Positions 2,615 through 63,572 of a stretch of DNA of 64,000 nucleotides are shown here, one piece after another. The position numbers and the translations under genes are program-made. The DNA is from a virus. Position 1 is the stretch's first letter. Every line of letters begins with the position of its first letter. Below the pieces are notes generated by a model. That model saw only the letters and a list, made by a program, of their open reading frames with translations. It was not told the DNA's origin and did no database searches. The DNA lies in IMG/VR virus record IMGVR_UViG_3300032242_002802, positions 1 to 64,000 of that record. One strand, given 5' to 3'.

Positions 2615-2764
2615 ATGAAAGCAAAAGAAGTATTAGAAAAATATAACATAACAAGAAGAACTCTTAGTAACTGGGTTAAGAAAGGTGTAATTGAAGTAGA
2701 ACTAACTCCAACAGGTAGATATATTTATATTGATAAAAATAAGAAATCAAATGAAGAGTTGTAG
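2615..2764 (+). CDS. Small MerR/resolvase-type HTH protein (cassette 1)
   Basis: 49-residue protein with an N-terminal helix-turn-helix: KEVLEKYNITRRTLSNWVKKG followed by a short wing IEVELTPTGRYIYID. This layout matches the MerR-like HTH found at the N-terminus of IS607-type serine resolvases and small excisionase-like proteins. There is no catalytic domain. Its stop overlaps the start of an HNH endonuclease gene by 14 nt. A paralogue identical at 34 of the first 40 residues lies at 62732, there coupled to a GIY-YIG nuclease. The pairing suggests a regulator or DNA-targeting partner of homing nucleases. Confidence 0.8.
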   Translation: MKAKEVLEKYNITRRTLSNWVKKGVIEVELTPTGRYIYIDKNKKSNEEL

Positions 2765-3431
2765 TAAATGTAAAATTGAAAAAGAATTTATTAATTTTCA
2801 TAAATGTTCAAAAAATAAAATTGGATACAGGTCACAATGTATTTCTTGTGAGAATGAATATAAGGAAGCTAATAAAGATAAACGTAGAGAATATGACAAG
2901 AATAGAGTTTATGATAAAGAAAGAAATATTCAATATTATTCCTTGAATAAAGATAATATTCTTCTAAAAAGAAAAGAATATTATCAAAATAATAAAGAAT
3001 CTAAATTAGAGTACCAAAAAGAGTACAATAAAAACAATAAAGAGAATAGAAACTTGTATCTAAATGAGAGAAGAAAAAATGATCCTTTATTTAAGCTAAT
3101 AACAAATGTTAGGAATTTAATATATAATTCATTCTATTATAATGGATATTCAAAAAATTCAAAGACAGAAGAGTTATTAGGTTGTTCTTTTGAAGAGCTA
3201 AAACAACATTTAGAATCTAAGTTTGAACCTTGGATGAACTGGGATAATAGAGGATTGTATAATGGTGAGTTAAATTATGGTTGGGATATTGACCATATAA
3301 TACCATTATCAAGTGTAGATAAAGAAGATGATATAATAAAATTAAATCATTATATAAATTTACAACCACTCTGTAGTAAAGTAAACAGAGATATAAAGAA
3401 AGATAATTTAGAATATGGCTTCATACAATAA
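2751..3431 (+). CDS. HNH homing endonuclease
   Basis: 226 residues from the ATG at 2751 (an upstream TTG would add 7). N-terminal zinc finger CSKC...CISC (residues 3-36), a long Lys/Asn-rich linker helix, then the phage HNH core: ELLGCSFEELKQHLESKFEPWMNW...WDIDHIIPLSS (the His-Asp-His region) ...NHYINLQPLCSKVNRDIK. Such enzymes cut cognate alleles lacking the insertion and spread by homing. The 3' end overlaps the portal start codon by 17 nt, so the element sits flush against an essential gene without breaking it. Confidence 0.9.
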   Translation: MKSCSKCKIEKEFINFHKCSKNKIGYRSQCISCENEYKEANKDKRREYDKNRVYDKERNIQYYSLNKDNILLKRKEYYQNNKESKLEYQKEYNKNNKENRNLYLNERRKNDPLFKLITNVRNLIYNSFYYNGYSKNSKTEELLGCSFEELKQHLESKFEPWMNWDNRGLYNGELNYGWDIDHIIPLSSVDKEDDIIKLNHYINLQPLCSKVNRDIKKDNLEYGFIQ

Positions 3432-33137: not shown

Positions 33138-33671
33138 ATGAATAAAAGAATAGTAAACAACAAAAGAAAACACAAAATAAATGATGATATTAAGTCATTT
33201 GAAGTTAGGTTAATTGTTACAGGTGCTGCACCTCAAGTAATGAAAACCAAAGATGCTCTCAAACTTGCTGATGATGAGGGTAAGGATCTTATTTTAATTA
33301 ATGAGAATCAAGAACCACCTATTGCAAAGATTGAGGATTATGGTAAATTTCTTTATAACATTGAAAAGATGTTAAAAGAACAAAAGAAAAATGCTGTAAA
33401 GTCAGAGTTAAAAGAAATAAAATTATCTTGTGAGATTTCAGACCATGACTTAGAAATTAAGGCTAAGAAAGGTAAAGAGTTTCTACAAGATGGTGATAAA
33501 GTAAAATGTGTAATTCAATTAAAAGGAAGACAAAAGGGTAATCCAGATAGAGGACAATTAGTAATGTTAAAATTTGCTACAATTCTTGAAGAGTTTGGAA
33601 CTCCTGAAAATGTTCCAAAATTAGAGACCAGTAAATGGTTAATGATATTAAAACCAAAAAAGAAGAACTAA
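33138..33671 (+). CDS. infC: Translation initiation factor IF-3
   Basis: 177 residues with both domains of bacterial IF3. N-domain: KINDDIKSFEVRLI...TKDALKLADDEGKDLILINENQEPPIAKIEDYGKFLYNIEK (14-74). C-domain: ELKEIKLSCEISDHDLEIKAKKGKEFLQDGDKVKCVIQLKGRQ, matching the IKxRxxIxxHDxxxKxxxxxxFLxxGxKVxxxxxFxGRE pattern. IF3 binds the 30S platform, prevents 50S joining and polices start-codon choice. A phage copy could favour leaderless or non-Shine-Dalgarno phage mRNAs. It lies directly downstream of the clamp gene. Confidence 0.93.
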   Translation: MNKRIVNNKRKHKINDDIKSFEVRLIVTGAAPQVMKTKDALKLADDEGKDLILINENQEPPIAKIEDYGKFLYNIEKMLKEQKKNAVKSELKEIKLSCEISDHDLEIKAKKGKEFLQDGDKVKCVIQLKGRQKGNPDRGQLVMLKFATILEEFGTPENVPKLETSKWLMILKPKKKN

Positions 33672-33684: not shown

Positions 33685-34042
33685 ATTCTTCATAATTTTC
33701 TATTTCAGATATTAAATCATCTAATGGACTATCACCTTGCCAAAAGAATAATCTCATTACATCTTCACCATTATTACTTATTATTTCATTAATGGCCATA
33801 CACCATTCAGAGGCAGAACCTTCTTTTATTATATTTCCTTGTTTTACTTTTATAATACTACCATTTATTGACACTATTTCACTATCATTAAAACTTGATA
33901 ATATAATCTCAGTTAGTTTTTCTATATCTGATTCTTTTGGTTCCCATATACTGACATATTTTAAATCTAAGTTTAATTTAGAATTTTCTATTTCACTACC
34001 ATTAACATCAAAACTTTCTGTAATTTTCTTTAAGTGTTTCAT
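33683..34042 (-). CDS. Hypothetical protein with packaging peptide, 119 aa
   Basis: Starts MKHLKKITESFDVNGS (cut predicted after E9). The remainder is acidic, small alpha/beta (IVSINGSIIKVKQGNII), with a C-terminal DDLISEIENYEE. No family recognised. Single-gene unit between IF3 and the polymerase fragment, convergent with IF3. Confidence 0.7.
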   Translation of the reverse strand: MKHLKKITESFDVNGSEIENSKLNLDLKYVSIWEPKESDIEKLTEIILSSFNDSEIVSINGSIIKVKQGNIIKEGSASEWCMAINEIISNNGEDVMRLFFWQGDSPLDDLISEIENYEE

Positions 34043-34118
34043 AATATTACTTATTTTTATAATGTATATATTAATTTTTTTATCTAAAACTTTTTACTCA
34101 TGGCTAAATATAATCTCT

Positions 34119-34250
34119 ATGACAAAAGAAGAAAAAAAACTTAGAATAGAGTCATTAAAGATACAGGCAGTACAACTAAAAAAAGATGTTGAATACTACA
34201 ATGCAATGCAAACTGCATTGAAGCTTGTACTTAATGGGTCTTATGTTTAA
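34119..34250 (+). CDS. 43: B-family DNA polymerase, segment ending inside motif B
   Basis: Short open frame of 43 residues whose end, YYNAMQTALKLVLNGSY, is the finger helix and motif B (K-x3-N-x-x-Y) of family B polymerases. The frame then hits GTT TAA. The continuation (G-A-F-A-T-A-Y-F...) resumes in another frame after a 40-nt hairpin element. Exonuclease domain and motif A are not upstream, so the polymerase N-terminal part must be encoded elsewhere: this is a split polymerase. Whether this segment is translated together with the downstream frame is discussed under the element. Confidence 0.75.
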   Translation: MTKEEKKLRIESLKIQAVQLKKDVEYYNAMQTALKLVLNGSYV

Positions 34251-35610
34251 CCCCCACTACAGATGTGGTGGGGGTGAAATTAACGGTGCATTTGCAACAG
34301 CCTACTTCATATTATTTAATAATCATGTAGCAGGTACAATTACTGCCCAAGGTAGAGACCTTACCAAAACAATGGATAGAGTAAATCAAGATTATTGGTA
34401 TAACCAATGGCAAAATGATTATGAATTACACACTAAACTTGGAATAAGAGATATTACACCTATTGATAAAAGTGAACCTGTTAGTATTTATGCAGATACT
34501 GACTCATTGTTTGTATCATTTAAACCTGCAATTGATCACTGTACTTGGGAAAACTTAGTATTTGATGAATTAGATTTCATCAGTGAGAGATTCATTATAC
34601 TATCAAAAGATTTTCCTAAACACAATAATCCTAATTGTGTTGGTATGGCTAAGAATGTTAAAGAGTTGGAAGAGTTATTAATTAATGATTATGACTTATT
34701 AATTTTTGATGGTGAGTTTATTAAAAATAGAGATATAAGTAGAATGATTTCAGAAGGTGTTTTCACATCTGAAATTAAATGGAACTGGTCTAAAGAACTT
34801 GATTTAATACAAGGTATGGATTCATTTAGATATGGTGGTTATTTCAAGAAATGTTTAGAAGATTATGCTGCATCATTTGGTGTTGAGAATAAAGAAGACT
34901 TTGAGTTAGAGAAGATTTCTGAATCTATCATAAACATTGCTAAGAAGAAATATATTCAACATATTGTACATGAAGATGGTATTGATTTTGACCCAATGAG
35001 TTATATATTCCCTAAAGGAGTTGAACTTGTAAGGTCATCTACACCATTGTTTGCAAGAGATAAAATTGTAGATATTGTAAAATATTTATTCTTAAATCCT
35101 GATACATTCAACATTAAAGAGTTACTTAAATTGGTTAAGAATTTAAGAAAAGAGTTTGAATTGGCAGATATTGATGACATAGCACAACAATCATCTTGTT
35201 CTAATTATGATGCTAAAGTAATTGATGATAAGAACTTACCTTTACAATATGTAAATGGTGCTCACTTTGCTGTTAAGGCAGCAGCTTATCATAATTATTT
35301 ATTACACAATGATAAGGATGCACAACAAAAGTATGAATATCTTAAATCTGGAACAAAGATTAAGTATTATGCTTGTAAAGATAAATCTATTAATGATTCA
35401 TTTGCTTATATGAGAGGTTCATTCCCTCATGAGTTTGCTCCTCAGATTGATTATGACCAACAATTTGCTAAGGCAATATTATCTCCAATCAATTCAATTA
35501 TTGAACCACTTGGAATGCCTACAATAACAAATAGATTATCAGTTGTGATGGATATTTTTGGTGGTTGGAATACTACTAAACCATCAGGTGGAACTAGTTC
35601 AGATTTCTAA
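34243..35610 (+). CDS. 43: B-family DNA polymerase, C-terminal palm and thumb
   Basis: From the Gly codon at 34285 the product reads GAFATAYFILFNNHVAGTITAQGRDL, then motif C YADTDSLFVSF (catalytic Asp pair), FDGEFIKNRDISRMIS, and a thumb region ending IFGGWNTTKPSGGTSSDF. In RB69/T4 gp43 seventeen residues separate the motif B Tyr from the AIT-x-x-G-Q stretch; here Y and TIT-A-Q-G-R are also seventeen apart once the hairpin is skipped. If translated on its own it could start at ATG 34243 (or TTG 34225), adding MFNPHYRCGGGEIN. The C-terminus has no clear clamp-binding box apart from the terminal IFGG region. Confidence 0.82.
   Translation: MFNPHYRCGGGEINGAFATAYFILFNNHVAGTITAQGRDLTKTMDRVNQDYWYNQWQNDYELHTKLGIRDITPIDKSEPVSIYADTDSLFVSFKPAIDHCTWENLVFDELDFISERFIILSKDFPKHNNPNCVGMAKNVKELEELLINDYDLLIFDGEFIKNRDISRMISEGVFTSEIKWNWSKELDLIQGMDSFRYGGYFKKCLEDYAASFGVENKEDFELEKISESIINIAKKKYIQHIVHEDGIDFDPMSYIFPKGVELVRSSTPLFARDKIVDIVKYLFLNPDTFNIKELLKLVKNLRKEFELADIDDIAQQSSCSNYDAKVIDDKNLPLQYVNGAHFAVKAAAYHNYLLHNDKDAQQKYEYLKSGTKIKYYACKDKSINDSFAYMRGSFPHEFAPQIDYDQQFAKAILSPINSIIEPLGMPTITNRLSVVMDIFGGWNTTKPSGGTSSDF
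34245..34284 (+). other. 40-nt GC-rich hairpin insert in polymerase motif B (bypass-like element)
   Basis: Between the Tyr codon (34242) and the Gly codon (34285) lie 40 bases not explained by polymerase homology: GTT, a TAA stop (34248), then a perfect 11-bp stem ACCCCCACTAC / GTGGTGGGGGT with an AGAT tetraloop (34250-34275, one G-U pair). Both ends carry TTAAC. Removing the 40 bases restores the frame and an ungapped match to gp43 around motif B. Stop codon plus stable hairpin right after the take-off point recalls the T4 gene 60 translational bypass. Take-off and landing codons are not obviously matched, so RNA excision or split subunits remain alternatives. Confidence 0.6.
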
Positions 35611-44584: not shown

Positions 44585-45487
44585 ATGTATTCAGATAAAT
44601 CAATAGATATAAAAATAGGTAAACATAATATAGATTATTATTTAGAAAGAGGTTATGATGTAAGAATAAAAGAAATTCACAAAATAAAATCTTGTGATGT
44701 TATAAAAACAGTTTCTAATAGAATATATGTTATATGTCAAAATTGTTTCATTGAGAGAGATGTACAATCTTGTAATTATCATAATCAATTAAAAAAACAA
44801 AACTTTTATGTATGTTCAAATTGTTCACATACAAAAATAAAAAAAACAAACCTAATTAAATATGGAACTGAGTGTCCTCTTCAAAATATAAAGATAATTG
44901 AGAAAACCAAAAAAACTATGTTAAAAGAATATGGAGTTGATAATATTTCAAAATTGGATTCAATTAAAGATGATAGGAGAGAAAACTTCAAAACAGAGAA
45001 TTTTAAAAATAAATCTAAAATAACATGGTTGGGTAAATATGGAGTTGATAATCCTTCAAAGTCGGATGGTATTAAATTAAAAAAGGAAGAAACAACATTT
45101 ATGAATTATGGGGTTAAAAATCCATCACAATCATCACTCATTTTTGAAAAATCACAAATAAGTGGTAAAAAAATAAAACTACATGATTGTGGATTAATGT
45201 ATAGAGGTACTTATGAAAAAGACTTTTTAGATTTTTGTATGAGTGAAAATATTTATGTTGAAAAAGGGTTGACTATAAAATATAATTATGAAGGTACTGA
45301 TAGATATTATCATTCAGACTTTTTCATACCTAATCTAAATCTTATATGTGAAATAAAATCATTATATTATTATGAATTATATTTAGATAAAAATATATCA
45401 AAAATGAAAAGCGCTATTGATAATGGATATAACTTTGAATTTATAATAGATAAAAAATATGATAAAATAAAAATCCCTCTTAATTGA
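44585..45487 (+). CDS. PD-(D/E)XK homing endonuclease with YGV-repeat DNA-binding region
   Basis: 300 residues. N-terminal beta region (YLERGYDVRIKE), a four-Cys zinc finger (CQNC...CSNC), then four repeats of the K-(Y/E)YG-V-(D/K)N-(I/P)S-K type (about 98-195), as in phage homing enzymes. C-terminal nuclease: MYRGTYEKDFLDFC, YYHSDFFIPNLNLICEIKS, giving the E, D and E-x-K set. Free-standing between two minus-strand gene groups, with its own terminator. The 129-aa fragment at 7469 is a truncated paralogue. Confidence 0.82.
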   Translation: MYSDKSIDIKIGKHNIDYYLERGYDVRIKEIHKIKSCDVIKTVSNRIYVICQNCFIERDVQSCNYHNQLKKQNFYVCSNCSHTKIKKTNLIKYGTECPLQNIKIIEKTKKTMLKEYGVDNISKLDSIKDDRRENFKTENFKNKSKITWLGKYGVDNPSKSDGIKLKKEETTFMNYGVKNPSQSSLIFEKSQISGKKIKLHDCGLMYRGTYEKDFLDFCMSENIYVEKGLTIKYNYEGTDRYYHSDFFIPNLNLICEIKSLYYYELYLDKNISKMKSAIDNGYNFEFIIDKKYDKIKIPLN

Positions 45488-62731: not shown

Positions 62732-62875
62732 ATGAAAGCCAAAGAAATATTAGAAAAATACAAAATTACAAGAAATACTCTTTGTAATTGGGTTAAAAAA
62801 GGATGGATAGAAGTAGAACTAACTCCATCAGGTAGATATATTTATATAGATAAAATTAATAATAGTGATGAGTAG
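62732..62875 (+). CDS. Small MerR/resolvase-type HTH protein (cassette 2)
   Basis: 47 residues: KEILEKYKITRNTLCNWVKKG helix-turn-helix with wing IEVELTPSGRYIYID. Identical to the cassette 1 protein at 34 of the first 40 residues, with similar DNA including the promoter motif. The recognition-helix residues differ (RRTLSN versus RNTLCN), so binding sites may differ. Its stop overlaps the GIY-YIG gene start by 8 nt, the same layout as in cassette 1 with another nuclease family. Confidence 0.8.
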   Translation: MKAKEILEKYKITRNTLCNWVKKGWIEVELTPSGRYIYIDKINNSDE

Positions 62876-63572
62876 AGAAGTTTATATTTATACATTGAGT
62901 TATAAAGATGACATTAGATATGTTGGTAGAACTTTTAATGTAGATAAAAGATTAAAACAACATATAAATGAATCTAATAAAAATAATACACATAAATCAA
63001 ATTGGATTAGAAAAGTTAAAGATATTAATATAGAGATTGTTGATGTTTGTGATGAGAGTAATTATTCTTTCTGGGAACAACACTATATATGTTTATATAA
63101 AAGTTGGGGATTTAATTTACTAAATATGACCATAGGTGGTGAAGGTGTATCAGGATATAAATATACAGAAGAGGATAGATTAAAAAGGTCTATTAGAATG
63201 TTAGGTGATAAAAATCATTTTTATGGTAAAAAACATACATTAGAAACAAGAAAAATAATATCAGAAGTTGATAGATATGGTAAAAGAAATTCTATGTATG
63301 GTAAAAAACATAAAAAAATATCTAAAAGTATTATGTCTAATAAAAAGATTGGTGTTTATGAAGGTGTTAATAATCCAAGAGCAAAAAAGCTGTATCAATA
63401 TGATACTGATAATAATTTAATTAGATGTTGGGATTTTGCCAAGGAATGTGCAGACTTTTATAATATTTCAAGAGGTAATATATCTACATTTTCAAAAAAT
63501 AATACCAATGTTGATTTAAGTGGACAAGGGAAGTATAGAATATTAATAGGATTTATATTCAAATACCATTAA
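62868..63572 (+). CDS. GIY-YIG homing endonuclease with NUMOD repeats
   Basis: 234 residues from the ATG at 62868. The catalytic domain reads VYIYTLSYKDDIRYVGRTFNVDKRLKQHI (the GIY...YIG strands in the form IYT...YVG, with the catalytic Arg) and FWEQHYICLYKSWGFNLLN (catalytic Glu). NUMOD3-like repeats follow (GDKNHFYGKKHTLETR, NSMYGKKHKK), then a NUMOD1/HTH unit KLYQYDTDNNLIRCWDFAKECADFYNISRGNISTF. A seg-type free-standing homing enzyme, inserted just before the amidoligase gene. Confidence 0.92.
   Translation: MSREVYIYTLSYKDDIRYVGRTFNVDKRLKQHINESNKNNTHKSNWIRKVKDINIEIVDVCDESNYSFWEQHYICLYKSWGFNLLNMTIGGEGVSGYKYTEEDRLKRSIRMLGDKNHFYGKKHTLETRKIISEVDRYGKRNSMYGKKHKKISKSIMSNKKIGVYEGVNNPRAKKLYQYDTDNNLIRCWDFAKECADFYNISRGNISTFSKNNTNVDLSGQGKYRILIGFIFKYH

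Follow-up and report, generated by a model that had tools for sequence, protein, structure and literature searches.

The window, i.e. the whole 64-kb stretch of DNA analysed here out of a 68-kb virus record, is a fragment of a huge-phage genome. Positions 34119-35610 correspond to the gene for the C-terminal half of a split family-B DNA polymerase, with an insert in the motif-B region between LNGSY and GAF (Table 1), and a profile search matched PF00136 in the downstream part of the gene (E=8.9e-12). The original prediction was right in seeing a polymerase gene interrupted in its motif-B region; however, the gene is not full-length, and the C-terminal half begins at 34119. In relatives, a separate, single gene located far away encodes the N-terminal half (~500-515 aa), which comprises the exonuclease and motif A (DFASLYPT); in LR756502, the N-half and C-half genes lie far apart (254 kb vs 121 kb). 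The record of the window, a 68-kb fragment, does not extend as far as the N-terminal half and lacks it. Among named relatives, the best are genomes of huge phages (634-735 kb), and the likely host phylum is Bacteroidota, to judge from Prevotella and Flavobacterium phages that encode distant relatives of the polymerase. A sequence search of the PDB gave no match, and the AlphaFold model of the C-half was of low confidence (pLDDT 58.5) and was left out of the conclusions. Just upstream of the C-half gene lies a gene for translation initiation factor IF3 (33138-33671; IF3_C E 8.8e-25, IF3_N E 5.7e-19), which occupies the same place in several relatives with or without an insert; a link to unusual translation is a possibility.

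Table 1. Features of the interrupted polymerase C-half gene in the window.
Feature	Position	Strand	Remarks
5' coding part of C-half gene	34119..34244	+	42 codons, MTKEEKK...LNGSY; ATG at 34119
Weak predicted 5' stem-loop in upstream coding sequence	34172..34231	+	Pairs within GTACAACT...AGCTTGTAC
TAT (Tyr), putative take-off codon	34242..34244	+	Geometry as in other inserts: codon, 6 nt, C-run
Inserted element, position-42 type	34245..34284	+	40 nt, GTTTAACCCCCACTACAGATGTGGTGGGGGTGAAATTAAC; missing in L004, which is nested in the same clade
In-frame TAA stop	34248..34250	+	Second codon after take-off
GC-rich hairpin	34250..34275	+	Arms ACCCCCACTAC (34250-34260) and GTGGTGGGGGT (34265-34275), loop AGAT, one G.U
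AAC, candidate landing triplet	34282..34284	+	Placed by geometry; imperfect for tRNA-Tyr, 2/3 positions
Main C-half coding part	34285..35610	+	GAFATAYF...YADTDS..., ~440 codons; resume codon GGT at 34285-34287

Direct reading confirmed the 40-nt stop-plus-hairpin insert: the frame runs CTT AAT GGG TCT TAT and then GTT TAA, and GAFATAYF resumes in a different frame that ends with a stop at 35610. If the insert were skipped, the fused peptide across it would be ...LVLNGSYGAFATAYF, and the junction peptide expected from bypass would be ...LVLNGSYGAFATAYFILFNNH... The arms and the AGAT loop of the hairpin were as originally described, but one of its 11 pairs is G.U, so that the supposedly perfect stem is perfect as RNA only. 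The TTAAC noted at both insert ends is present in the window and also in L005, and both ends carry TTAGC in L006; the remaining relatives have no such repeats, and we rejected TTAAC direct repeats as a family feature. No further copy of the insert with 3 or fewer mismatches was found across the 64 kb, its fold had a z of -3.4 (0 of 200 shuffles were equally good), and C4...G4 hairpins in 1.06 Mb of flanking DNA from relatives were nearly all located at the motif-B insert site. The hairpin is thus not a product of chance. A hairpin at L041:14975 and pattern hits outside the polymerase gene were set aside as terminators or unrelated.

Two scans of IMG/VR yielded approximately 60 related contigs, and their motif-B regions were aligned allowing one insertion. 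We extracted 32 distinct inserts of 36 to 48 nt, as against about 20 close related insert-free loci; an additional, 33rd insert occurs in L172. These insert-free loci provide the uninterrupted gene that the original prediction had suggested looking for, and such homologues (L004 and others) continue directly from the 5' part into GAF. A scan of the genome-contig collection (genome_contigs) found no relative. The relatives do not count as independent cases, and a single origin is possible for several of the inserts. The inserts occupy six positions within 11 codons of the C-half gene (codon 32, 33, 36, 39, 40, or after 42) and share a constant layout of codon, ~6 nt, C-rich arm, short loop, G-rich arm, 5-10 nt and resume codon. 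Their lengths fall into all three classes modulo 3 (14/9/9; n=32). Stop readthrough and simple frameshifting were rejected, because 23 of the 32 lengths are not multiples of 3 and hairpins are present.

At codons 32, 33, 36, 39 and 40, the resume codon falls into the same codon box as the first codon of the insert in 24 of 24 cases (p ~1.6e-7, counting one draw per position). The matched pairs, GCT..GCA/GCT, CTT/CTG..CTA, GTT..GTT, GGT..GGT and TCT..TCA, cover five positions and five amino acids. The third bases often differ, so the match is not a simple 3-nt duplication. They are nevertheless regular: take-off codons are nearly always NNU, and the landing codons are CTA, GCA and TCA, as would be expected if one U34 tRNA gave up weak pairing for strong pairing. 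The Leu landing codon is CTA in all 15 cases, although the commonest Leu codon is TTA. An in-frame stop lies at +2 in 24 and at +1 in 4 of the 32 inserts, with all three stop codons in use, and in 28/32 the stop comes 1-2 codons past the last good codon (the exceptions are L050, L011 and L051/L054). For codon-33 members, bypass would give the junction peptide ...LQLALKLVLNGSYGAF... Furthermore, 10 of the 20 inserts at codons 32/33 (L010, L012, L017, L018, L036, L037, L044, L049, L050 and L095) have TGA or TAA immediately 5' of the landing codon.

These regularities bear on two other explanations. Hairpins can cause sequencing errors, and L036 and L037, practically identical over the surrounding 2 kb, differ by one G within the G-run of the insert, where a homopolymer error is possible. 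An assembly or sequencing artefact is nonetheless exceedingly improbable, as identical inserts recur in independent metagenomes (L025/L026/L043/L047 and L017/L018/L019) and the features and codon match are ordered over 32 inserts. Alternatively, the polymerase could consist of three associating pieces, namely the N-half, a C-part with its own start and, between them, a peptide of 43 aa that terminates at the stop. The polymerase is indeed already split into N- and C-halves, and a functional split gp43 exists in phage 44RR. However, a start downstream of the insert was rejected: there is no in-frame ATG, GTG or TTG from the insert to residue ~30, an in-frame TAA directly precedes the resume codon in L011 and L033, half of the codon-32/33 inserts have the stop at the landing edge described above, and the cut would lie inside motif B. 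The separately made downstream subunit that the original prediction had named as counting against bypass is thus very unlikely.

The insert stems contain 31 G.U but only 3 A.C pairs in 28 stems under a rule scoring both alike, and the loops are stable tetraloops (GNRA and one UUCG). The abundance of G.U and scarcity of A.C indicate that the hairpin folds as sense RNA, and a DNA-level cruciform was rejected on the same ground. In addition, inserts at codons 32, 33 and 36 have a second stem-loop in the coding region just upstream, with its 3' arm 0-1 nt from the take-off codon in 21 of 21 cases; in L031, the 5' stem and the take-off codon are both displaced by three codons. The synonymous-shuffle z of this stem-loop ranged from -2.7 to -7.1 at these three positions, compared with -2.2 to +1.7 in uninterrupted genes (Mann-Whitney p = 2e-8), and none of 500 shuffles matched its covariation. 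The 5' stem-loop is also strong at codon 40, and weak at codon 39. A lysine-rich stretch upstream of the insert occurs in uninterrupted genes too.

Folding in the sense RNA would also suit a miniature intron that is cut out of the mRNA, followed by ligation and continuous reading of the message. Precise removal would restore the frame in every insert and leave the length free modulo 3, and phages commonly encode RNA ligases. However, such an intron does not predict a codon-phased match of take-off and landing, stops at +1/+2, or a stem-loop that tracks the take-off codon. Moreover, 36-48 nt is below the size of known self-splicing introns, and no Rfam family was matched above the gathering score at 33900-34700. 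RNA removal of the insert is therefore unlikely, with perhaps a slim chance left to it.

Both flanks of the insert are under purifying selection. Between the window and L005, dN was 0.031 and dS 0.45 upstream of the insert (dN/dS ~0.07), and 0.125 and 0.83 downstream (dN/dS ~0.15). These values also speak against the inserts being regulatory or disabling hairpins in a dispensable or dying gene. The recent and patchy occurrence of the inserts would fit such decay, but the downstream frame is intact in the interrupted family members, and the relatives yielded no complete second family-B polymerase, a gene that the original prediction had listed as counting against bypass. We consider a dispensable or dying gene very unlikely.

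Taken with the codon match, the stops, the sense-RNA hairpins, the 5' stem-loop and the free length, this selection makes translational bypass, as originally proposed, the reading that accounts best for the inserts as a family, and very likely so at the five positions other than codon 42; most of the support comes from relatives. The window itself belongs to the codon-42 group (n=8: the window, L005, L006, L007, L011, L022, L033 and L048), in which no insert has an exact match of take-off and landing codons (0/8). Take-off in this group would occur on TAT/TAC, and the triplets before the resume Gly are AAC, AAC, AGC, AAC, TAA, CAA, TAA and GAC, which pair with tRNA-Tyr at two of three positions at most. 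The Ser-Tyr codons vary synonymously (TCT/TCC/AGC/AGT and TAT/TAC). The 5' stem-loop is borderline in the group (p = 0.055) and strong in L022 only; that of the window is not significant (z = -1.3). Two other matches were considered and rejected. One, through GGN..GGN, would delete S-Y-G and is trivial, because every NGSYGA contains G-x-x-G; the other, in the +1 frame (AAC..AAC/AGC..AGC), is exact in the window, L005, L006 and L007 but absent in the other four members.

The insert of the window thus does not have the two strongest signs of bypass, the codon match and a strong 5' stem-loop, which makes its mechanism less certain. Bypass still appears the likeliest explanation for the codon-42 inserts, with a reasonable probability, and the title of a cited gene 60 study by Herr et al. 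points the same way. A more speculative and rather doubtful idea is that these inserts are passed by a second, non-cognate bypass in which peptidyl-tRNA-Tyr would land on near-matching triplets. One mobile family would then have tried several landing rules, and host or phage-modified ribosomes would accept hopping far more easily than E. coli ribosomes do.

In 19 of 31 interrupted loci, the C-half gene is directly preceded, on the opposite strand, by a freestanding HNH homing-endonuclease-like gene or its remnant, compared with 0 of 20 close uninterrupted loci (p = 3e-6). When the tree was taken into account, ~6 pairs supported the association of endonuclease and insert and none opposed it (median p 0.03). 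The window has no upstream endonuclease gene, and L149, a distant insert-free relative, has one. The upstream endonucleases match PHROG homing endonucleases (E to 8.5e-11), and their C-terminal ends carry an invariant DHK.S...G...NLCITK...NS.K, by our reading an HNH-like pattern. Their clades follow the insert position, one occurring with codons 32/33/36 and the other with 39/40/42; an exception is L005, which sits on a long branch. Several other candidate genes were seen. A DUF7487 protein related to the upstream endonucleases is encoded 10 kb downstream in the window (44585-45487; E 8.8e-27), and two further endonuclease-like ORFs (2730-3431, HNH-like, and 62865-63572, GIY-YIG-like) were recognised by eye from translations. 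Some interrupted loci have a second HNH-like ORF (MKKC(S/T)KCK...) directly 3' of the polymerase gene, at ~+1284..+1982 relative to the GAF codon in L005 and L095.

On the polymerase tree, the insert state is patchy, with at least 15 changes. The site is empty in L004, which has neither insert nor endonuclease, and filled in L006, which has both. The proteins encoded downstream are identical between L011 and L012, but the inserts differ. L010 and L011 are 92-98% identical downstream and ~40% upstream, with the break exactly at the insert/motif B, and dS between L096 and L132 is 0.28 upstream of the insert and 1.79 downstream. In a pooled synonymous-difference test, travelling of the 5' part with the insert showed a modest effect only, the clear cases being single pairs. 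The sequence breaks and patchy inserts would fit homing with co-conversion, as proposed for T4 mobA/gene 60. Inteins at the DTDS motif C were found alongside the hairpin insert in L031, L035, L044, L051-L053 and L107; two kinds of homing-type element thus strike this gene.

Overall, the insert is quite probably a member of a mobile, ribosome-bypassed element family in the motif-B region of the split polymerase C-half gene. In this model, the freestanding HNH homing endonuclease encoded upstream would cut uninterrupted polymerase genes near motif B, and repair would introduce the hairpin insert together with the 5' coding part and the endonuclease gene, the insert destroying the cut site. The ribosome would then halt on the take-off codon ahead of the hairpin and stop, and the peptidyl-tRNA would release. 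The hairpin, together with a 5' stem-loop re-forming behind the ribosome in most members, would carry the ribosome across the insert. Re-pairing of the peptidyl-tRNA at the landing codon would allow reading to resume, and the essential polymerase would survive. In the window, which is without the upstream endonuclease gene, landing would need imperfect tRNA-Tyr pairing. The make-up of the inserts, their codon match and RNA pairing, the association with the endonuclease gene, the patchy spread and the selection are computed results, whereas the endonuclease cutting, the ribosome hop and the survival advantage are inferred.

To our knowledge, long-gap bypassing in bacteria and phages is established for essentially one gene, T4 gene 60. 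In T4, ribosomes perform a programmed 50-nt bypass aided by a 5' stem-loop, which that of the polymerase inserts resembles, and mobA lies nearby (PMC5009743, PMC3014915). The original prediction had already pointed to gene 60; the homing-endonuclease cassette had not been foreseen. Both systems involve the C-terminal half of a split essential phage gene, with the gap near its start (codon 46/47 in T4, after codon 32-42 in the polymerase), a stop plus a hairpin with a stabilising tetraloop, a 5' stem-loop behind take-off (strong in the polymerase at codons 32, 33, 36 and 40), matched take-off and landing codons (in most polymerase inserts), and an adjoining HNH homing endonuclease gene with proposed shielding of the site from cutting. 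However, the inserts described here sit in a family-B DNA polymerase, in another phage group and with another endonuclease family, and number at least 32, diverse and spread over six positions, as opposed to one case. T4 uses GGA for take-off and a stop at +1, whereas the polymerase take-off codon is not GGA, the stop is mostly at +2, and the hairpin starts ~6 nt past take-off; the codon-42 inserts also differ from gene 60 in having no exact landing codon. Gene 60 also needs a nascent-peptide signal. Apparently, the polymerase inserts follow the logic of mobA/gene 60 but evolved independently and are highly mobile.

The split gp43 of Aeromonas phage 44RR/25, with its intercistronic sequence, HEG and intron, is likewise a split T4-like polymerase gene that draws homing endonucleases. 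Its split, however, gives two proteins, whereas the insert in the window is located within motif B, where it has to be passed. The byp elements of Magnusiomyces capitatus mitochondria, with 81 inserts over many genes (PMC5009743), are similarly short, numerous, presumed mobile and hopped over, and some of their codon matches are imperfect. They are mitochondrial and spread over many genes, in contrast to phage inserts in one gene with an endonuclease cassette and a 5' stem-loop in the coding region. A 29-nt hop has also been reported for plaA of Prevotella loescheii (PMC5009743), i.e. in Bacteroidota, the likely host phylum of the insert-bearing phages, but plaA is a cellular adhesin gene with no known endonuclease or insert family. 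We found no prior description of the polymerase hairpin-insert system in the open-access literature (few subscription papers and no bioRxiv preprints were covered). If the proposed model is true, homing endonucleases can repeatedly create ribosome-skipped elements within an essential gene. The natural inserts, at least 32 at six positions and with insert-free siblings, would make it possible to deduce from evolution, and to test, the rules that govern take-off and landing, the hairpin and the 5' stem-loop.
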